Positions 3 through 31,815 of a stretch of 32,518 nt of DNA are shown here, in pieces (position 1 is the stretch's first letter; each line of letters starts with the position of its first letter). A program made the position numbers and the translations under genes. The DNA is from a virus, in IMG/VR virus record IMGVR_UViG_3300032242_000673, positions 1 to 32,518 of that record, one strand, 5' to 3'. Under the pieces are notes generated by a model, which was not told the origin of the DNA, ran no database searches, and saw nothing but the letters and a program-made list of their open reading frames with translations.

Positions 3-173
3 ACTGCTGAGGAAATTGCTCAACGCGAAGTGGATGCTCAAGCCGCCGCAGATCGCAAGGCTCAAGAGGATGCAGATGCCGCTATTCTTGCAGGGCTAAA
101 GGCGAGCGCAAAGGCTAAGTTGATGGCAGGACAACCTTTAACTGAGGCTGAGGCAAACACTCTTATTATCTAA
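3..173 (+). CDS. C-terminal fragment of an unidentified gene (cut by window edge)
   Basis: The reading frame is open from the window edge to TAA at 171-173 and gives 56 residues rich in Ala, Glu, Gln and Lys. They are probably helical and end in the pattern GQPLTEAEAN. The start lies outside the window. The stop overlaps the stop of the convergent methyltransferase gene by 8 nt, so the two genes meet tail to tail with no terminator between them. I do not recognise the family. Similar short acidic-helical C-termini occur in small phage structural or assembly proteins, but that is only a resemblance. Confidence 0.6.
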   Translation, partial: TAEEIAQREVDAQAAADRKAQEDADAAILAGLKASAKAKLMAGQPLTEAEANTLII

Positions 174-828
174 CCCAACACATCCCGACATCGGGAGTTG
201 GGCGTAATCCTGATCTTTGCCAATCGCCATTAGACCAAATCGGCGCATTAGCAACCCACCAATCGTAAAAAGTTATTTCTCCAAACTTGTACCAACGATT
301 AGGCTCTTGTAAATGATGCTCTATGAACTGAGGCGCAAACTCTTTGTAGCCTAAATGCACTAAATAATCTAACTGTTCGTGATGGTCATCCATAGTTGCT
401 TGCGACCATTCAAAGGTTAATGGGTAGGGATTAGACATACCCTTAAATACAGACCATTCAGCCCCTTCGACATCTACTTTGATTAGATCGGGTTTGCCAT
501 ACAACTTAACCAAAGTATCAACGGTTATGGTCGTGGCTTTAACTGTTCTAAATGGTTTGCCGTTGTAAGGCATTGATTCATCAGTTAGCCAATCTTTATT
601 GATTGTAGATAGCCCATCTTCATCGGCTTCATAGAACTCAATGCGTTTAGCATCTTGATCTGATACCGCTAACTTTAACGGTTTAACTCTTGGCTCATAG
701 ATAAAGTTCTTAACAAGTTCGGCATAGATTCTTGGGGCAGGCTCTAGCGCAATTACTTTTGTAAATCCTTTATTGAGTCCGGCAATAGTGGCATCACCAC
801 GATTAGCCCCGATGTCGAATAGGATCAT
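166..828 (-). CDS. FkbM-family SAM-dependent methyltransferase
   Basis: The 220-residue protein begins almost directly with the SAM-binding glycine motif DIGANRGD (residues 5-12). An acidic residue follows the second strand (ALEP), and the family signature VDVEGAE lies near residues 118-124. Known FkbM enzymes O-methylate sugars or small molecules. The last ~60 residues are aromatic-rich and extend past the core. It is the third gene of a minus-strand trio, and its ATG overlaps the stop of the upstream gene (ATGA), which implies translational coupling. By context it probably methylates a glycan handled by the GH130-like partner, on the virion or on the host surface. The substrate cannot be read from sequence. 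Confidence 0.85.
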   Translation of the reverse strand: MILFDIGANRGDATIAGLNKGFTKVIALEPAPRIYAELVKNFIYEPRVKPLKLAVSDQDAKRIEFYEADEDGLSTINKDWLTDESMPYNGKPFRTVKATTITVDTLVKLYGKPDLIKVDVEGAEWSVFKGMSNPYPLTFEWSQATMDDHHEQLDYLVHLGYKEFAPQFIEHHLQEPNRWYKFGEITFYDWWVANAPIWSNGDWQRSGLRPTPDVGMCWVR

Positions 829-1379
829 TGACCAATTCTCTCAAGGTTGGATTTGACGGCGTTTTCGTATTCAGGTGCTATACTTTCGTAAGATAATTCC
901 CTAAACAGTTTTAGGCTTTCATCGTTACGGCCGATCCAATAGGCACTAACCGCTACTTCAAAGCGCAGGCAGTATTCGCCGTAGTATTCAACAAATGTTG
1001 GCAAGGCTGGCAGTTCATATTGCCGAAGCCCTATTTGCGCAAATGTGTAGCACTCCTGCCAATTACCTGATCTTTCGTGAAAGCGCGACATCAAGAAATA
1101 ACCTTCGCGCCTATGTGGTAAGTATGCGATTGCTTGAAGCAAACAATTACTAACCGTATGCTGGCGATCGTTTTGATCCTCAAAGCATTTAGCAAGTTTT
1201 AATAGCGAGGCATAAACATAATCGCTCGCAGTATCTTTACCGTATTCTGCACAACGCAGATAGAATGATACGGCAGAAGCAGTTTGATTTAGTCGTTCAT
1301 ATTCCACCGCTACATCAAAGTTTAACCTTGGGTTGAATGGATCGTTAGATAGATCAACTATCAGATTCTCAATTATCAT
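825..1379 (-). CDS. TPR-like helical repeat protein of the glycan cassette
   Basis: This 184-residue protein is predicted all-helical. Repeat-like segments have small residues at TPR positions: NFDVAVEYERLN near residues 20-31, ASVSF-type and KLAKCFED segments, then LMSRFHERSGNWQECYTFAQIGL near 96-118. The pattern matches tetratricopeptide-like domains found C-terminal to, or beside, glycosyltransferases in viral contigs. No catalytic glycosyltransferase motif (DXD) is evident, so it is more likely a scaffold or partner than an enzyme. It overlaps both neighbours (11 nt upstream, 4 nt downstream) and so belongs to one coupled operon with them. The exact function is unknown. Confidence 0.6.
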   Translation of the reverse strand: MIIENLIVDLSNDPFNPRLNFDVAVEYERLNQTASAVSFYLRCAEYGKDTASDYVYASLLKLAKCFEDQNDRQHTVSNCLLQAIAYLPHRREGYFLMSRFHERSGNWQECYTFAQIGLRQYELPALPTFVEYYGEYCLRFEVAVSAYWIGRNDESLKLFRELSYESIAPEYENAVKSNLERIGQ

Positions 1380-2352
1380 TTAACGCCTCCAAGATTAAAT
1401 CTTCAACAACAAGTTTAGGTACGCGCAATACAAATGCCGCGTTATCCTGAAACCCAAAACTAAGCAGTAGATCATCACCTAATTTAGCCGCACCTACGCA
1501 AAACTCAATGCGAGCATCTAGGAATGAAAAGGCTTGCGATAGACCAACTACATTTAATTCACTATCCCATAGCACTAAACGATGGCGGTAAATGCCGTCT
1601 TTTTGATCTAGGTAATTCTTAAACAGATTAACTTCGTGGCTAATAGAAATATACATATTGCCCCAAGGGATCAAATGCGATGATCCGCGTTGGTCGGCAG
1701 GCGGTTGAATAGACTCACGCACGAACACCTGCGCACACGCGCCTGTATCTACATCGGCTTTAACTAACTCAGTTGGTAAAGTCCATTTGATGAAATGATA
1801 CGGCTTATCTACGACTGGATACCAATTCTTTTCGCAATACGATGGCTTGTTAAATGGCGTTGCAATTCGAGTACGCGCAACTTCGCTAACTTGCCAAGCA
1901 TCTTTATCCAAAGCAATACGGCTATATTCCATACGACCCTCACCATTGGTAGTTGTATCGCGCCGAACGCCTACTAAATATAGATCGCCATCCCATCGCA
2001 CAAGGCGAGCATCTTCTAAGCCTACGAACTCCCAAATAGGTTCGTGCAGATTTAGCATCTCAACTTTTGCTGAGTTAATAACTTCTAAGTTTTCGTTTAG
2101 TCGGCATAGATAATTCTCTGTTACTAAGCGTTGATCTTTCTCAGGGTGAAGGTATGAAAGCGGCCCCCACCTCGAAGGAAATCGTTGTTGATTCTCTGAG
2201 TGGTAGAGTGTGTAATTAACTACTCGAACATTAACTAAAATATCGCCATCATCATCTACGAACACCGATGGATTCATTCCACCAACCGTAGATTGAATAA
2301 CAATAGGTGCTAACTTGCCACCTTTTGAAACTGCCTTCTCAACTAAATTCAT
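1369..2352 (-). CDS. GH130-like five-bladed beta-propeller glycan enzyme
   Basis: The 327-residue protein has the layout of five-bladed propeller glycosidases and phosphorylases. NPSVFVDDDGDILVNVR lies near residues 27-43, the signature GLEDARLVRWDGDLYLVG near 111-128 (E113 and D114), a KNWYPV strand near 175, a repeated blade edge, and a C-terminal FGFQDNAAFVLRVP like the GH130 closing strand. GH130 enzymes phosphorolyse or hydrolyse beta-1,2 or beta-1,4 mannosides, and many distant members are uncharacterised. It is the first gene of the minus-strand cassette and starts 29 nt from the divergent portal gene. Function is inferred from fold and from its methyltransferase partner. A glycan-binding or glycosyltransferase-associated role is the main alternative. 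Confidence 0.6.
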   Translation of the reverse strand: MNLVEKAVSKGGKLAPIVIQSTVGGMNPSVFVDDDGDILVNVRVVNYTLYHSENQQRFPSRWGPLSYLHPEKDQRLVTENYLCRLNENLEVINSAKVEMLNLHEPIWEFVGLEDARLVRWDGDLYLVGVRRDTTTNGEGRMEYSRIALDKDAWQVSEVARTRIATPFNKPSYCEKNWYPVVDKPYHFIKWTLPTELVKADVDTGACAQVFVRESIQPPADQRGSSHLIPWGNMYISISHEVNLFKNYLDQKDGIYRHRLVLWDSELNVVGLSQAFSFLDARIEFCVGAAKLGDDLLLSFGFQDNAAFVLRVPKLVVEDLILEALNDN

Positions 2353-5461: not shown

Positions 5462-7036
5462 ATGGCAACTGATTTTACTTATGCGTATGCAGAGTTAATC
5501 AAGGCAGATAAGCACTCAGACGGCACACTTACTGTTTATGGTAAGGCAACCGATGATTCTATTGATATGGATCAGCAAATCTGCGATCCTGCTTGGCTAG
5601 ATACCGCTATGCCACAATGGTTTAAGTCAGGCGGCAACATCCGCGAACAACATTCAAACATTGCGGCGGGAGTTGCAAAAGAATATGAAGCGAAAAGCGA
5701 TGGTCATTACATTTCTGCTCTTGTCGTTGATCCTGTTAGCGTTAAAAAGGTCGAGGCAGGCGTTCTTAAGGGATTCTCAATAGGCATTAAATCTCCACGC
5801 GTTGTACGCGATACCAAGGCAGTTAATGGTCGCATCATTGATGGGCAGATCATCGAAGTTAGCCTTGTAGATCGCCCTGCCAACCCAAACGCGAAGTTAA
5901 TTATGGCAAAAAGTGTTGAAGGAGAATCATCTCTAGTTCAAGTTGAGGAACTTCACGAATACAAAGCACCGCTACCTAGCGATGTTATTAAGACCACTAA
6001 GAAAGGGTCAAAGATGGATAAAATAAAGCAAATCACGGAATTGGCTAAGTCTTTGACTCCTGATACCGTGAAGTTTGACCAAGCACTATTCGACATTGCA
6101 GTTAAGGCTATTGCAGACTTAATCATTGTTGAAGCGGGAGAAATCTCAGCCGACAATAGCGAGCGCGATTCAATCGAAAGCCTAATGGATGCTCTAAAGC
6201 ACCTACGCAACTGGTACGAAGGCGAAGTTGCAGAAGGCGAAGTAGCCGCACCTGATCTAAATACTATTGAACTATCTGCTGATGCAGAAGTTGTTAAGGG
6301 CGATTGCGATCACGAAGATTCTTGCGCTGATTGCGGATGCGATGGATGCAAGGCCTGTAAAGGTTGCGATACCAAGATGTGCAAGGGATGTTCATATATG
6401 GCCGCAAAATCTGTTCAAGCAGATACCGCAAAGTGCTTAGAGTGTGGATGCCACAATGTCGGTGCTACACATGGACTAGACAAGGTTCTACCACCAAGCG
6501 GATCAAATCCTAATCCAATGGTTGCACCTGCAAATGTAACAACTGCTCAAATCATTACACCTGAACAGGGTGCTGGATCAGTTAAATCTGCCGAAGCAGA
6601 CGAAGTTGCTACCGAAGCAGAAGCACCTGTTGAAGCAGAAACTCCTGCCGAAGTTGCAGAAGTTACCGAAGTTTCTGAGGTTGAAACCTCAGATGATAAG
6701 GGCATTGAAGCCATTATCGAAGAAGCCGTTAAGAGTGCTATGAAATTGGTTGAAGCCGAGATTGCTTCACTAAAGGCAGAAAAAGAGTCTGCTCTAGAGA
6801 AGTCAGTAAAACTTGAAACCGAACTAGCAACGGCATTGTCTAAGAGTGTTGCAGGTGGCCCAAAGCGCACCGCAGTAATCTCAGGCGCACAATCAAATGA
6901 ATATCTAGTCAAGGCCGCAACATATAAGGCCAAGGCTGATGCAACAACCGATCCTGTTCTACGCAAGGGATACCAATCACTTTATGCGGAATTTTCCACA
7001 AAGGGTGGCTTGCCAATCTCTGACGAGAACGAATAA
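5462..7036 (+). CDS. Capsid maturation protease fused to scaffold, with Cys-rich insert
   Basis: The 524-residue protein starts with an HK97-type (S78) prohead protease domain (1-150). Catalytic candidates are H64 in EQHSN, S106 in GFSIG, and the acidic strand ending VSLVDRPANPNA. The C-terminal part is a scaffold: an acidic, Ala/Glu/Val-rich linker (~375-410), a coiled coil (~412-460) and a basic tail. Between them lies an unusual block (281-330) with eleven cysteines, mostly CxC and CxxC pairs, that could bind zinc or another metal. ATG 6014 (M185), preceded by AAAGGG, could start a separate scaffold as in lambda C/Nu3. The protein precedes the major capsid gene and is expected to be cleaved and lost from mature heads. 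Confidence 0.85.
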   Translation: MATDFTYAYAELIKADKHSDGTLTVYGKATDDSIDMDQQICDPAWLDTAMPQWFKSGGNIREQHSNIAAGVAKEYEAKSDGHYISALVVDPVSVKKVEAGVLKGFSIGIKSPRVVRDTKAVNGRIIDGQIIEVSLVDRPANPNAKLIMAKSVEGESSLVQVEELHEYKAPLPSDVIKTTKKGSKMDKIKQITELAKSLTPDTVKFDQALFDIAVKAIADLIIVEAGEISADNSERDSIESLMDALKHLRNWYEGEVAEGEVAAPDLNTIELSADAEVVKGDCDHEDSCADCGCDGCKACKGCDTKMCKGCSYMAAKSVQADTAKCLECGCHNVGATHGLDKVLPPSGSNPNPMVAPANVTTAQIITPEQGAGSVKSAEADEVATEAEAPVEAETPAEVAEVTEVSEVETSDDKGIEAIIEEAVKSAMKLVEAEIASLKAEKESALEKSVKLETELATALSKSVAGGPKRTAVISGAQSNEYLVKAATYKAKADATTDPVLRKGYQSLYAEFSTKGGLPISDENE

Positions 7037-21289: not shown

Positions 21290-21929
21290 AACTTTAACTA
21301 CCGCGTTGAGAGAAGCCGATAGCGTTAAAGATCGCTCGGTGCAGGTAGAGATTGGTGCAAGTTCGATCGGTGGATGTCGCAGGCAGGCTTGGCACATCAT
21401 CAATCAAACACCTAAAACAAATCACGATACGGAGAATCTAAGTGCGATACTCGGTACTGCTATCCATCACACGATCCAAGAAGCGTTATCGGCACTCGAT
21501 TTGTTTGGTGAGGACTTTCTCATTGAACAAGAGTTCTCAGTACCGGAACTTAAGGGGCATTGTGATTTCTATTCTAGGTCGGCTAAGTTGGTGGCTGATT
21601 GGAAAACAACCACGCTTAAAGGGTTGGCAAAGTTTCCAAGCGCACAACAAAAAATGCAAGTGCAACTTTACGGTCATCTACTTATTCAAAATGGCTATGA
21701 AGTCGAGCAGGTAGCCTTAGTTGCTATTCCTAGAGATGGCAAGATGTCGGATATTAAAGTTTGGCAAGCACCATACGATCAAGTAGAAGCCGATAAAGGT
21801 TTGGCTTGGTTGCAAGAAATAAAGAAGATGCAATTTCCACCACCCCCTGAGAAATCGGCAGTTTTCTTTTGCCAAAACTATTGCAGTTACTACGATCGAA
21901 CAGGGGAAATCGGATGCCAAGGAAAATAA
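21276..21929 (+). CDS. PD-(D/E)XK nuclease with probable Fe-S cluster (Cas4/AddB-like)
   Basis: The 217-residue protein starts at ATG 21276. TTG 21267 would add three residues and is possible. The RecB-family motifs appear in order: H64 in GTAIHHTIQEAL, D97 in GHCDFYS, D108 and K110 in VADWKTTT, and QVQLYGHLL near 128-136. Cysteines C34 (IGGCRRQAW), C199, C203 and C214 are placed as in Cas4 and AddB, where four cysteines hold a 4Fe-4S cluster and stabilise the nuclease. It probably resects DNA ends for the annealing protein encoded upstream. Confidence 0.85.
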   Translation: MDIVKTLTTALREADSVKDRSVQVEIGASSIGGCRRQAWHIINQTPKTNHDTENLSAILGTAIHHTIQEALSALDLFGEDFLIEQEFSVPELKGHCDFYSRSAKLVADWKTTTLKGLAKFPSAQQKMQVQLYGHLLIQNGYEVEQVALVAIPRDGKMSDIKVWQAPYDQVEADKGLAWLQEIKKMQFPPPPEKSAVFFCQNYCSYYDRTGEIGCQGK

Positions 21930-22420
21930 CAGTTGAAGATGCGATGGTGCGTTACGGCGTTACAGAAAAGACTATTCGCCGTTGGGTAAAGCGCAAAGGG
22001 TTACAAGAATTTGAATACGATACATATAGCCAAGATGATCTAGACCAATTACTGAGCAAGATAGTGAAGCCCGCCAAGCCTAAAAAAGAAATTCAATGGG
22101 AGCGCGCCAACTGTAAGGGAATCAATACCGATTTATTTTATCTTGAAGATGATCTATTGCGGCAAAAGCACATTCAGATTCGATATGTGCGCCAAATCTG
22201 TTTCTCTTGCCCAATACGCCGCGATTGCTATCAATACGGTTATGAGAAAGAGCGTTGGGGTATGTTCGGTGGCGTTACATCTTGGGAACGCGCCGAGATA
22301 GCCAAGAAAGCCTACGACTCGCGCTTTTTACAGGCACTACGCAGGGATTTAGAAGTCTTTGGAGTACCGTTAGAAGATATATTAAATGATTCAAATATGG
22401 AAAGGGATTTACATTCGTGA
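21914..22420 (+). CDS. HTH-WhiB fusion transcriptional regulator
   Basis: The 168-residue protein starts at ATG 21914 after AGGGGAAA. Residues 4-48 form a MerR/excisionase-like HTH (EDAMVRYGVTEKTIRRWVKRKGL). Residues 60-128 are a WhiB domain with C67, C96, C99 and C105, spaced C-x28-C-x2-C-x5-C for a 4Fe-4S cluster, followed by WGMFGGVTSWERAE where WhiB proteins have a GVWGG-type turn. WhiB proteins bind the main sigma factor, and phage members such as TM4 WhiB can repress host whiB2. The added HTH is unusual and could give its own DNA specificity. It is the main evidence for an actinobacterial host. Confidence 0.88.
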   Translation: MPRKITVEDAMVRYGVTEKTIRRWVKRKGLQEFEYDTYSQDDLDQLLSKIVKPAKPKKEIQWERANCKGINTDLFYLEDDLLRQKHIQIRYVRQICFSCPIRRDCYQYGYEKERWGMFGGVTSWERAEIAKKAYDSRFLQALRRDLEVFGVPLEDILNDSNMERDLHS

Positions 22421-26673: not shown

Positions 26674-26813
26674 ATGATGCATACATAGCGCGGTGTATTT
26701 CGTGCGGGGCTTGGGGTCAAATTGACTCGCAATGTTCGACCTGCACTACAATTATCCCACCAACGAAAGGAGAGTTAGAAATGACTCACACAATCAATGG
26801 AGGCTCACGATGA
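26670..26813 (+). CDS. Small zinc-ribbon protein
   Basis: The 47-residue product carries CISC and CSTC, ten residues apart, so a compact zinc knuckle pair. It starts at the ATGA overlap and its 3' end overlaps the exported protein gene by 17 nt in another frame. A strong AAAGGAGAG lies inside its 3' half, before an in-frame ATG (26781) that would give a ten-residue peptide. The function is unknown. Confidence 0.55.
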   Translation: MNDAYIARCISCGAWGQIDSQCSTCTTIIPPTKGELEMTHTINGGSR

Positions 26814-27270
26814 CGGCTCTAGGATCGGCGGCGATTGGTTCGCGCTGAAGTTCAAGGCTCGTATCCTTGTAGTAGTCGCTTTGGCGATTGGATACTTGCT
26901 CGCAACCCCGGCACTAGCAATAGCACCAAAAGAATTCATAGTTGCTAGAACGCCTACGGCGGCAAAGTTTTACGCACAAACACAACTTCATAAATATAAA
27001 TGGAACTCAAAGGCTCAATGGGCTTGTTTAGTTCAACTTTGGACTAACGAGTCAAATTGGCGGCCGGAAGCCAAAAACCATCAAGCAGTAAAAATGCTGA
27101 TAAACGGAAAATGGATTAAGTTTTACGCGGGTGGAATTCCACAACGCTTAGGGCTAAATCCAAGCGCGAGCGTTCAAGAGCAGGTTCGGGTAGGATTGAA
27201 CTATGTTCGAGATCGTTATAGAACGCCTTGCGAGGCTCTTTCGTTTTGGCAAAGGCATTATTACTACTGA
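26797..27270 (+). CDS. Exported lytic-transglycosylase-like (SLT) protein
   Basis: The 157-residue product has a basic N-terminus, a hydrophobic segment (~22-40, ARILVVVALAIGYLLATPALA) and an ALA-like cleavage site near 41, so it is probably secreted or anchored. The rest matches small actinobacterial SLT domains: catalytic Glu E85 in LVQLWTNESNW, then GGIPQRLGLNP and VGLNYVRDRYRTPCEALSFWQ. Such enzymes cleave glycan strands of peptidoglycan. Unlike the CHAP endolysin it has its own export signal and sits in the early region, so it may open the wall gradually or block superinfection. ATG 26797 is the only good start, though its ribosome site is weak. Confidence 0.75.
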   Translation: MEAHDDGSRIGGDWFALKFKARILVVVALAIGYLLATPALAIAPKEFIVARTPTAAKFYAQTQLHKYKWNSKAQWACLVQLWTNESNWRPEAKNHQAVKMLINGKWIKFYAGGIPQRLGLNPSASVQEQVRVGLNYVRDRYRTPCEALSFWQRHYYY

Positions 27271-27431: not shown

Positions 27432-27971
27432 ATGACCACAATTATTGCAAGGCAGTTTCCTGATCGCGTGGTCATAGGTGCAGATAGCCTTGTAACCGCA
27501 ACTCGCAAATACACGCATCCCAAAATGGCAAAGATAACTGAACGCGGTTTATATTTGATCGCTGGCGCAGGAGAATCTGCCGCTTGCGACATTGCGCAAC
27601 ATCTTTGGAATCCACCAAAACCAACTGCCGATGATAAAAAAGATTTATATCATTTTGTAATTTCTAAAGTAGTGCCATCGCTAAAGCAATGCTTCAAAAA
27701 TAATGAATACAAGTGGGATGATAAAGATGACGAAGAAACCAAATTTGCTTTTCTTATTGCAATCGGCGGTGAAGTATTTGATCTCAGCGATGATTTTGCA
27801 GTTTGCCTCGATGCTGATGGTTGTTATGGCATTGGTAGCGGTAGTTCTTTGGCTTTGGGTGCTATTAAAGCAGGTGCTTCTATGGAAACCGCGCTCAAGA
27901 TAGCATCAGAGAAAGACCCATACACCGCACCACCGTTTCAATTTATGGAACAGGAAAAATGGATAAAGTAA
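27432..27971 (+). CDS. Proteasome beta/HslV-like Ntn hydrolase
   Basis: The 179-residue protein begins MTT. After removal of Met, the catalytic residues fall at exactly the proteasome/HslV positions: T1, D17 in GADS and K33 in MAKI. The next segment LYLIAGAGESAACDIAQHL parallels the HslV strand and helix, and AIGSGSSLALGAIKAG (here YGIGSGSSLALGAI) is the family's second Gly-Ser turn. ASEKDPYT gives a late Asp. Proteases of this class assemble as rings with Thr active sites facing inside and need an ATPase or activator. No HslU, ARC or alpha-subunit gene is in the window. It could use host partners, or act alone. It overlaps the HNH gene by 13 nt. Confidence 0.8.
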   Translation: MTTIIARQFPDRVVIGADSLVTATRKYTHPKMAKITERGLYLIAGAGESAACDIAQHLWNPPKPTADDKKDLYHFVISKVVPSLKQCFKNNEYKWDDKDDEETKFAFLIAIGGEVFDLSDDFAVCLDADGCYGIGSGSSLALGAIKAGASMETALKIASEKDPYTAPPFQFMEQEKWIK

Positions 27972-28282
27972 TTGCTGAAACCGTATTGGCTCGCGCTCAG
28001 GGCTATTGCGAAGTATGTGGATTGCCGGGCGATGATTTTGCCCTGCATCATAGAAAATTAAAATCTCGCGGTGGTAAAGATGAAGTGGCTAACCTGCTCG
28101 TATGCCATCATAAATGCCATAATCTAGGAACAGACTCGATTCACTTGAATCCGCAGAAGGCAACGCTTAAAGGCTATATGATTCCATCTTACGGTAAGCC
28201 CGATGAATATCCCTTACACCTACCTGATGGAACTATTGTAAGATTAGATAACGAAGGCAACTACAACAAGATAGAGGGCTGA
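27959..28282 (+). CDS. HNH endonuclease
   Basis: The 107-residue protein carries two zinc-type CxxC pairs (CEVCG and CHHKCHN) around the HNH core: LHHRKLKSRGGKDEVANLLVCHHKCHNLG near residues 31-59. It has Asn in the second strand-turn and His in the final helix, as required for ββα-Me nucleases. A C-terminal beta part follows. HNH nucleases in phages help packaging near terminase genes, but here it is in a separate block with SSB and the proteasome-like gene. It may be a restriction-type or homing nuclease. Confidence 0.85.
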   Translation: MDKVIAETVLARAQGYCEVCGLPGDDFALHHRKLKSRGGKDEVANLLVCHHKCHNLGTDSIHLNPQKATLKGYMIPSYGKPDEYPLHLPDGTIVRLDNEGNYNKIEG

Positions 28283-28283
28283 T

Positions 28284-28673
28284 ATGGCAACAATAAATGT
28301 AACTGGCAATGTTGGAACTGATCCTGAGATCAAATTTTTTGACGGTAAGAACGGATCATTTGGCGTTACTTCGTTTTCTCTTGGTTATACACCAAGCGAG
28401 AAAAAAGGTGCTGAGTGGGTACAGGGTGAAACTATTTGGTTTCGCGTATCTGTTCTAGGCAAGCAAGCCGAAGTTATTGCTGATGCTATTAAAAAAGGCG
28501 ATAAAGTTTTAGTAAATGGCGCATTTAAGCAATCGTCATACCAAGCCAAAGATGGCACACAAAAAACAGGATTAGAGATTAAAGCCGATTCTGTAACTAT
28601 TGTTCCTAAGGCTGGCGCATCAAGACCTAAGGTAATCAAAGATGAGCCTGTTTGGGGTGGCGGATGGAACTAA
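28284..28673 (+). CDS. ssb: Single-stranded DNA-binding protein (OB fold)
   Basis: The 129-residue protein has the OB-fold sequence of SSB: ATINVTGNVGTDPEIKFF, FSLGYTPSEKK, WFRVSVLGKQAEVIADAIKKGDKVLVNGAF, and a last strand with GLEIKADSVTIVP. The tail (~112-129) is short and ends EPVWGGGWN instead of the acidic DDDIPF-like tip through which SSB recruits host repair proteins, so it may not interact with those partners. It supports phage replication and recombination along with the annealing and nuclease proteins. Confidence 0.88.
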   Translation: MATINVTGNVGTDPEIKFFDGKNGSFGVTSFSLGYTPSEKKGAEWVQGETIWFRVSVLGKQAEVIADAIKKGDKVLVNGAFKQSSYQAKDGTQKTGLEIKADSVTIVPKAGASRPKVIKDEPVWGGGWN

Positions 28674-28831
28674 TGAGTAGCAAAGAGGTTTGCGAATACT
28701 TAAACATCAAGCCTAACTATCTGCATCAATTACAGTTTCGTAAGAAATTAAATTGGTCTGAGAAAAAGGGTCGCAATGTTTATTACTCACGCGAGGTTGT
28801 AGAGTCTTTGGGGCAATCACTTAAGAAATGA
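28673..28831 (+). CDS. Small HTH protein (MerR/excisionase-like)
   Basis: The 52-residue product starts at TAATG with the SSB stop. SSKEVCEYLNIKPNYLHQLQFRKKLNW matches the helix-turn-helix start of MerR/Xis-type proteins, followed by the wing VYYSREVVESLG. It overlaps the PP-loop gene by 4 nt. Such single-domain HTH proteins act as excision or transcription factors in phages. No integrase is present, so a recombination-directionality role is unlikely. Confidence 0.65.
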   Translation: MSSKEVCEYLNIKPNYLHQLQFRKKLNWSEKKGRNVYYSREVVESLGQSLKK

Positions 28832-29640
28832 AACATATTGTTATGTTTTCGGGGGGTATTGGCTCTTGGGCTACGGCAAAAATAGTTGCTGAACGCTTTG
28901 GTACTGATGATCTTTACTTGGTATTTGCCGATGTAAAAGGCAATTCCGATTCACCGCATATAGGCGAAGATGAAGATACCTACCGTTTTATAGACGATGC
29001 AATTAAAAACATTGGTGGCGGTCATTATATTTACTTAAATGAAGGTAGAGATATTTGGACATTATTTCAAGATCAAAACTTTTTGGGCAATTCTCGTATT
29101 GCTAATTGTTCTAAATTATTAAAACAACGGCCTGCGCGTAAATGGTTAAAAGAAAACGCTGATCCCGAAGATAGCGTAATTTATGTGGGAATCGATTGGT
29201 CAGAAACCCATCGGCTACCTGCAATCGTCAAAAACTATTTGCCTTACAAAGCAGAAGCACCTTTATCTGAACCACCTTATTACGACAAACAACAACTTAT
29301 TGAATGGGCGCAACGAGAAGGCTTAAAAACTCCACGCTTATACGATATGGGATTTCCACACAATAATTGCGGTGGGGGTTGCGTAAGAGCCGGGCAAGGA
29401 CAATTCAAAAAACTATTGGAAACAATGCCTGAGCGTTTTGCAACTTGGGAAATTAAAGAACAAGAATTGCGTGAGCATATAGGGCAAGATGTGGCTATAT
29501 TGAGCGAGGTTGTTAAAGGCGTTAAGCGACCATTGCCTTTAATTGAGTTACGCCGTAGGCACGAAGATCAGCCATCAATGATTGATGATTTTGATATTGG
29601 TGGATGTAATTGTTTTGTGGAGTTTGAAGATGAAGTGTAG
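28828..29640 (+). CDS. PP-loop ATPase, PAPS reductase/DndC-like, with cysteine cluster
   Basis: The 270-residue protein has a PP-loop motif SGGIGSW (residues 8-14), the mark of the adenine nucleotide alpha-hydrolase fold (PAPS reductases, tRNA sulfur transferases, DndC, QueC). C94, C181 and C185 (NNCGGGC), C260 and C262 (GGCNC) could hold a Fe-S cluster or zinc. HNNCGGGCVRAGQ also resembles conserved motifs of phage members annotated as PAPS reductase-like. In DNA modification systems such enzymes activate or insert sulfur. Neighbours include SSB, HNH and a ParB-methyltransferase, so a base- or backbone-modification role is possible, but unproven. Confidence 0.7.
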   Translation: MKHIVMFSGGIGSWATAKIVAERFGTDDLYLVFADVKGNSDSPHIGEDEDTYRFIDDAIKNIGGGHYIYLNEGRDIWTLFQDQNFLGNSRIANCSKLLKQRPARKWLKENADPEDSVIYVGIDWSETHRLPAIVKNYLPYKAEAPLSEPPYYDKQQLIEWAQREGLKTPRLYDMGFPHNNCGGGCVRAGQGQFKKLLETMPERFATWEIKEQELREHIGQDVAILSEVVKGVKRPLPLIELRRRHEDQPSMIDDFDIGGCNCFVEFEDEV

Positions 29641-30479: not shown

Positions 30480-30686
30480 ATGATCATTACCATCGAGGAA
30501 GTTACGCTTGCCGACATTGACGAAGCCCTGAGAAACTATCGGGACAAATTAGAAGATCGTTACGGCAATCGCCTGACTTATCAAAAACGCCAAGAATATC
30601 TTGGTAAAGTAGATGATTTATTAGACGCAAGGCTTAAATTAACGGGGGGCAACCGTGAAAGTTCAAATAACAAAACTAACTCTTGA
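30480..30686 (+). CDS. Small acidic-basic helical protein
   Basis: The 68-residue product starts at ATG 30480 (in-frame GTG 30459 is alternative). It is helical and charged throughout (ADIDEALRNYRDKLEDRYGNRLTYQKRQEYLGKVDDLLDARLKL). It overlaps the methyltransferase gene by 32 nt in another frame, and its 3' end carries that gene's GGGGGG-type ribosome site. It resembles small accessory proteins that precede phage terminase or methyltransferase genes, but no family was recognised. Confidence 0.65.
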   Translation: MIITIEEVTLADIDEALRNYRDKLEDRYGNRLTYQKRQEYLGKVDDLLDARLKLTGGNRESSNNKTNS

Positions 30687-31815
30687 TCCAAAGAATGCGC
30701 GTAAACACTCTCAGCGCAACCTTGACGCAATAGCCGCTTCTCTAGTAAGATTTGGTCAGCGCAAGCCTCTAGTGGTTCACCGTGGCGTTGTCTTAGCGGG
30801 CAACGGAACTCTAGAGGCGGCCCGCTCTCTTGGTTGGACAGAGATTGAAGTAGCCGAAGTTCCTGATGATTGGGATATGGATACTGCCAAGGCTTACGCG
30901 CTTGCAGATAATAAAACTGCTGAACTTGCCGAGTGGGATGAAAGTGAACTTGCCAAGCAACTTTTAGAACTTGATGATAAAGGTTGGGATATTCACGAAT
31001 TAGGTTTTGAAATGCCACAGGTTATCGAGGCCGAACCTATTGATGAAAATGATGTGCCGGAAGTACCTGCTGAACCTACAACTAAAGTAGGAGATGTATG
31101 GCAATTAGGCAAGCATCGCCTTGTATGCGGTGATTCAACGGATGTAACCGTAATGGAAAAACTGCTCGGTGATGAAAAAGTAGATTTAGTATGGACAGAC
31201 CCACCTTACGGCGTTTCTTATGTAGGAAAAACTAAAGATGCTCTTACTATTGAAAACGACAGTTTAAATCACGCCGAACTAACAGATTTCTTGCGCGAAG
31301 CATTTAACTCAATCTTTACGGCAACACGCCCCGGTGCTTGTTGGTATGTAGCCGCACCTTCCGGCGATCTTTTTCAATGTTTCTCTATACCCCTTACTGA
31401 ACTGGGCGTATGGAAGCACACTCTTGTATGGGTAAAAGATACCTTTGTTATGGGTCGTGCTGATTATCACTATCGTCACGAATCTATATTTTATGGTTGG
31501 ACACCCGGCGCGGCGCATCAAACACCGCCCGATCGCAAGCAAGATACTATTTGGGAAATCAAACGCCCTAAGGCCAACAAAGAGCATCCAACGATGAAGC
31601 CTGTTGAATTGATAGAACGCGCTATTCAAAACTCAAGCCTTGCCAATCAAATAGTTTTAGACGCTTTTGGTGGCTCAGGCTCAACCCTTATCGCTTGTGA
31701 ACAAACTAAGCGTTTGGCTCGTTTAATAGAATTAGACCCTAAATACTGTGATGTTATTGTGAAGCGTTGGGAAAACCTTACGGGGCAAAAAGCAGAACTT
31801 GTGACCAGTAAGTAA
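30655..31815 (+). CDS. ParB-domain / DNA adenine- or cytosine-N4 methyltransferase fusion
   Basis: The 386-residue protein starts at GTG 30655 after AACGGGGGGC. Residues 1-110 are a ParB-like domain (NARKHSQRNLDAIAASLVRFGQRKPLVV, GVVLAGNGTLEAARSLGW). Residues ~140-386 are a beta-class methyltransferase: TDPPYGV (motif IV), and DAFGGSGSTLIACEQTKR (motif I) with HPTMKPVELIERAI before it and ELDPKYCDVIVKRWE after. The motif order fits N6-adenine or N4-cytosine enzymes. ParB-methyltransferase fusions occur in many phages and protect DNA from restriction or regulate it. No cognate restriction gene is adjacent, so it is probably an orphan enzyme. It ends 7 nt before the terminase small gene. Confidence 0.9.
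   Translation: MKVQITKLTLDPKNARKHSQRNLDAIAASLVRFGQRKPLVVHRGVVLAGNGTLEAARSLGWTEIEVAEVPDDWDMDTAKAYALADNKTAELAEWDESELAKQLLELDDKGWDIHELGFEMPQVIEAEPIDENDVPEVPAEPTTKVGDVWQLGKHRLVCGDSTDVTVMEKLLGDEKVDLVWTDPPYGVSYVGKTKDALTIENDSLNHAELTDFLREAFNSIFTATRPGACWYVAAPSGDLFQCFSIPLTELGVWKHTLVWVKDTFVMGRADYHYRHESIFYGWTPGAAHQTPPDRKQDTIWEIKRPKANKEHPTMKPVELIERAIQNSSLANQIVLDAFGGSGSTLIACEQTKRLARLIELDPKYCDVIVKRWENLTGQKAELVTSK

Follow-up and report, generated by a model that had tools for sequence, protein, structure and literature searches.

A proteasome-like N-terminal-threonine peptidase gene conserved in a lineage of freshwater tailed phages

The window analysed here, a 32.5 kb freshwater virus record with portal, head, tail, endolysin, WhiB, RusA-like and SSB genes, encodes a proteasome-like (group I, BPH/HslV-like) N-terminal-threonine peptidase of 179 aa at positions 27432-27971 (+). 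Phage genes of the proteasome type are already known in many phages and the window gene is a further member. It belongs to a large, uncharacterised lineage in which the active site is complete, the inner loop is acidic and a partner unfolding motor is lacking.

Results

The open reading frame starts with ATG and its product has an MTT N-terminus (MTTIIARQFPDRVVIGADSLVTATRKYTHPKMAKITERG...), while the reverse strand across 27432-27971 is not open. Counting Met as residue 0, so that the mature protein would begin at T1, places D17 and K33 in the proteasome/HslV register, exactly as an earlier note on this DNA had proposed, and the two family turns that it had recognised, IAGAGES and IGSGSSLALGA, are both found. 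Alignment with 20S beta5, BPH and HslV adds the oxyanion-hole residue G46, S135 within a GSG motif and D161-P-Y-T164 (D-x-x-T) to the catalytic set. Judging from the visible motifs and the 20S sequence, S135 presumably corresponds to proteasome S129, and D161/T164 to D166/S169.

Relatives of the window protease are encoded in at least 170 IMG/VR stretches. Across 58 distinct IMG/VR relatives, no substitution occurs at T1, T2, D17, K33, G46, S135 or T164, and 57 of them retain D161; homologues lacking T1, D17 or K33, which the earlier note had named as evidence against its assignment, were not encountered. The start codon always lies immediately 5' of the TT codons and is ATG or GTG at 102 loci and ATC or ATA at five. 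Loci L001 and L112 have ATC and L004 has ATA at this position, each followed by TT, and the ATC/ATA starts reflect sequence errors or else non-canonical initiation. Comparison of the window gene with five relatives gave dN/dS values of 0.07-0.18, and the protease is thus a real gene under strong purifying selection. In the tree, the window protein falls into one clade with IMG/VR relatives (support 96/96), and the deeper joins, which rest on long branches, were left unused. Two profile searches of genome contigs, one with the family profile and the other with the protein of phage DSL-LC01, yielded no bacterial relatives.

The earlier note had proposed to check its family call by HMM searches. 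PHROG_1040 ('peptidase HslV family'), a broad cluster named by similarity and not after a tested function, matched the protein over essentially its full length (residues 1-176, E=3.5e-28), whereas Pfam Proteasome PF00227 remained at E=0.0018 and 18.4 bits, below the cut-off of 22.4 bits that the same gene exceeds in six of nine phage records, and the NCBIfam HslV models gave 14.4 bits against a cut-off of 137 and 13.3 against 157.75, short of the HslV equivalog threshold. The best sequence match in the PDB was BPH, the Betaproteobacteria proteasome homologue (E=2.4e-5). An AlphaFold2 model built from 18 family sequences (pLDDT 81.6, pTM 0.80, weak at 22-25) shows the Ntn sandwich, the fold whose absence would have spoken against the earlier assignment, as well as two consecutive helices at 49-58 and 72-90. 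Foldseek likewise returned BPH as top match (E=2.6e-9), and the fold alignment to BPH covered 160 residues with Z 15.8 and rmsd 3.3; HslV (Z 15.6) and Anbu (Z 14.9) are tied with it within about 1 Z, and all 1000 aligned chains had Z of at least 8, with BPH, HslV, Anbu and 20S in the top rows. As judged from sequence matches and the predicted model, the nearest solved relative is BPH and not HslV or a 20S beta subunit, with the fold Z scores nearly tied. Sequence, conservation and fold thus all back the assignment to the proteasome/HslV-like threonine proteases with a full catalytic set.

Between helix 2 and the next strand lies an acidic loop (27702-27740 (+); mature residues 90-102, NEYKWDDKDDEET), the counterpart of the BPH pore loop, its boundaries being set by the BPH definition (PMC5777263) together with the predicted secondary structure. 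In every one of the 58 distinct relatives, the N90-T102 stretch comprises 10-12 residues, 5-7 of them acidic (median net charge -5). BPH is distinguished from HslV by a long acidic pore loop that follows helix 2 (PMC5777263), and in our alignment E. coli HslV has only a short linker at this position.

Upstream of the protease is a lytic-transglycosylase-like gene (26797-27270 (+); phrog_15428, with a weaker match to the transglycosylase phrog_12661), a cluster that holds the same position in 61 of 88 contigs. Downstream, an HNH endonuclease gene (27959-28282 (+)) shares 13 bases with the end of the protease gene, the same cluster following the protease in 52 of 85 contigs, and next to it is a gene for a single-strand DNA-binding protein (28284-28673 (+), phrog_44). 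In relatives, the large terminase gene lies about 3.5 kb 3' of the protease. The protease has the replication/recombination block on one side and the packaging genes on the other, and its placement in an early region, as the earlier note had it, was not confirmed. The window also contains a phosphoadenosine-phosphosulfate-reductase-like gene at 28828-29640 (phrog_424, 1e-56), of which the cluster occurs in nine related loci, and, at 30655-31815, a gene for a ParB-like domain fused to a DNA methyltransferase (phrog_498, 1.3e-134), which is common 3' of the protease in relatives. At its other end, three genes precede the portal gene (166-2352 (-)), the first resembling an FkbM-type methyltransferase.

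Most of the window was compared with phages by megablast, without a match. A WhiB-like regulator (21869-22420 (+)) points to an actinobacterial host, the matches of the HNH endonuclease are all actinophages, and a more distant relative of the protease is found in DSL-LC01, a lake phage with a predicted Actinomycetia host (PMC10611076), where a gene annotated 'ATP-dependent protease subunit HslV' adjoins WhiB. On these three grounds, the freshwater tailed phages of this lineage appear to have actinobacterial hosts.

The earlier note had seen neither an unfoldase nor an alpha-subunit gene nearby, and this holds across nine phage records, some of them fragments: none had an AAA_2 or AAA match, although both families were matched in all 14 control genomes, and each record contained one proteasome-like frame and no second. 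Virus records may be incomplete, and an unfoldase gene could lie beyond their ends.

Two further genes accompany the protease in particular sub-lineages, and the window itself has neither. A GroES gene (PF00166, 1.2e-27) lies directly 3' of the protease in 14 contigs (12 from the neighbour survey and two more), its start lying within the final codons of the protease (L060:5140-5427 and 13 other contigs), and all 12 matches of the GroES search came directly after a protease gene. In L013 and L070, a different GroES is present 1.8 kb upstream of the protease. In another sub-lineage, a histone-deacetylase-like gene (PF00850, 3.2e-50) is located directly 5' of the protease in seven contigs (L077:87-1046; also L082, L083, L088, L111, L035 and L036). 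This gene has no PHROG match, and motifs known for zinc binding in HDACs (HH, DxHHGDGT and GADGL) can be seen in its alignment with HDAC6. Distant copies occur in other phages, for example Microbacterium phage Magritte and Rhodococcus phage E3. Many of the paired contigs are near-identical, and the pairings thus represent few evolutionary events.

Discussion

This lineage combines a fully conserved active site and strong purifying selection with at least 170 viral relatives, and no unfoldase is encoded in the nine records examined. With it, phages that apparently infect Actinobacteria are seen to carry a group I proteasome homologue, whereas a 2021 survey found no Actinobacteria-specific phage with AAH (PMC8665760). 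Genes of this kind are not rare in phages, contrary to what the earlier note had supposed; phage members are widespread, are represented in PHROGs and were described in 2021 as PPH and AAH (PMC8665760). In our hands, tblastn with a distant relative from a Psychrobacter phage matched 178 phage records, among them T5-like Salmonella and E. coli phages with the annotations 'proteasome subunit-like' or 'peptidase HslV family', and 'protease' genes of the same kind occur in the actinophages Hum25, Pitbull and Pumpernickel. Our literature search found no paper that tests the function of any phage proteasome homologue.

We lean towards a model in which the phage protein is a BPH/HslV-like, self-compartmentalising group I threonine peptidase that degrades proteins without a dedicated unfoldase. 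Host methionine aminopeptidase would remove the initiator Met and expose Thr1, which K33 and D17 would activate. The subunits would probably assemble, like BPH, into a closed homo-oligomeric double ring with the acidic loops lining its pore, and unfolded or intrinsically disordered proteins might enter without an AAA+ motor or be brought by housekeeping chaperones, so that host or phage proteins would be removed or tuned during infection. The GroES genes directly downstream in 14 contigs fit a role in protein quality control. Since the neighbour genes vary between sub-lineages, no neighbour points firmly to a function. The GroES and deacetylase pairings provide concrete starting hypotheses for the function of phage proteasome homologues. 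Here we entertain, as a long shot, that the viral unfoldase-free compartment forms, together with GroES or the histone-deacetylase-like deacylase depending on the sub-lineage, a phage-run turnover module removing chosen host proteins.

Alternatively, the protein could provide a catalytic chamber for a AAA+ ring of the host (Mpa/ARC, ClpX or ClpC), on which it would dock and so turn the host's ATP-dependent degradation to targets chosen by the phage. Such docking would agree with the lack of an encoded unfoldase in the phage records and with the use of ATPases by the related 20S and HslV proteases, but we identified no docking determinant, the 2021 survey saw no co-occurring AAA+ partners for the new proteasome homologues (PMC8665760) and BPH has no known AAA+ partner (PMC5777263), and we thus regard it as unlikely. 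General protease activity need not follow from an intact active site, as purified BPH was inert on standard peptides and casein even though epoxomicin bound its Thr1 (PMC5777263). This inertness also suits a peptidase or transpeptidase of high specificity that has a single host or phage protein as its substrate and is similar in function to connectase, a proteasome-family member that is a ligase (PMC8665760) and has active-site chemistry in common with the phage protein; the deacetylase-like pairing in some relatives could, moreover, signify a specific modified substrate. The connectase signature, a two-helix insertion between strands 3 and 4, was however not seen in the phage protein, which is compact like BPH and HslV, and we find such a narrow activity rather improbable.

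Many Actinobacteria have 20S proteasomes. With Actinobacteria as likely hosts, the protein might be imagined as a poison subunit that inserts itself into the 20S beta ring of the host and so disturbs its proteasome, but a decoy would not need a catalytic set fully conserved under strong purifying selection, the resemblance to 20S beta is weak and largely confined to the N-terminal part, and distant members are also found in phages whose hosts, such as E. coli and Salmonella, lack a 20S proteasome, which makes such interference very improbable. Maturation of the phage head or tail, in keeping with the large terminase gene that follows some 3.5 kb further on in relatives, is hardly credible, since a separate head-maturation protease (5462-7036 (+); phrog_80 and others) adjoins the portal and head genes, and the processing of phage proteins raised in the earlier note is thus unlikely where head proteins are concerned.

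The preferred reading, a BPH/HslV-like peptidase working without a dedicated unfoldase, can be set against several named systems. The members in Actinomycetia phage DSL-LC01, Arthrobacter phage Hum25 and Microbacterium phage Pumpernickel, annotated 'protease' or 'ATP-dependent protease subunit', have the same catalytic positions as the window protein, but are distant in sequence and fall outside its well-supported clade; that of DSL-LC01 is 27% identical by tblastn and, at 229 aa, larger. A 20S beta subunit is argued against by the start codon directly before Thr1 in all relatives, which leaves no propeptide, and by the single proteasome-like frame in each of the nine records. HslV (ClpQ) resembles the phage protein in fold, Met-Thr start and catalytic set, and differs in having a short linker in place of the acidic loop; HslV proper was rejected on the score of 14.4 bits against the 137-bit NCBIfam cut-off and the lack of an HslU-type AAA+ gene in the nine records, some of them fragments. 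The groups described by Fuchs, Alva and Lupas in 2021, namely PPH (about 140 aa), found in both phages and hosts, and AAH, which many phages carry as well (PMC8665760), are like the window protein phage-encoded, group I proteasome-like and without a known unfoldase. PPH lacks helix H2, and identity with PPH is excluded by the length of the window protein (179 aa; relatives 176-186) and its predicted second helix. BPH (PDB 5ovs, 5ovt and 5ovu) remains the best match in both sequence and fold, at about 25% identity. The phage protein is virus-encoded, whereas the 2021 survey gives no phages for BPH, and its catalytic Lys occupies position 33 like that of the proteasome, not 37. Both proteins have in common the Thr1/Asp17/Lys set, the GSG serine, a Met-Thr start without propeptide, a long acidic loop after helix 2 and the lack of an encoded or known unfoldase partner.
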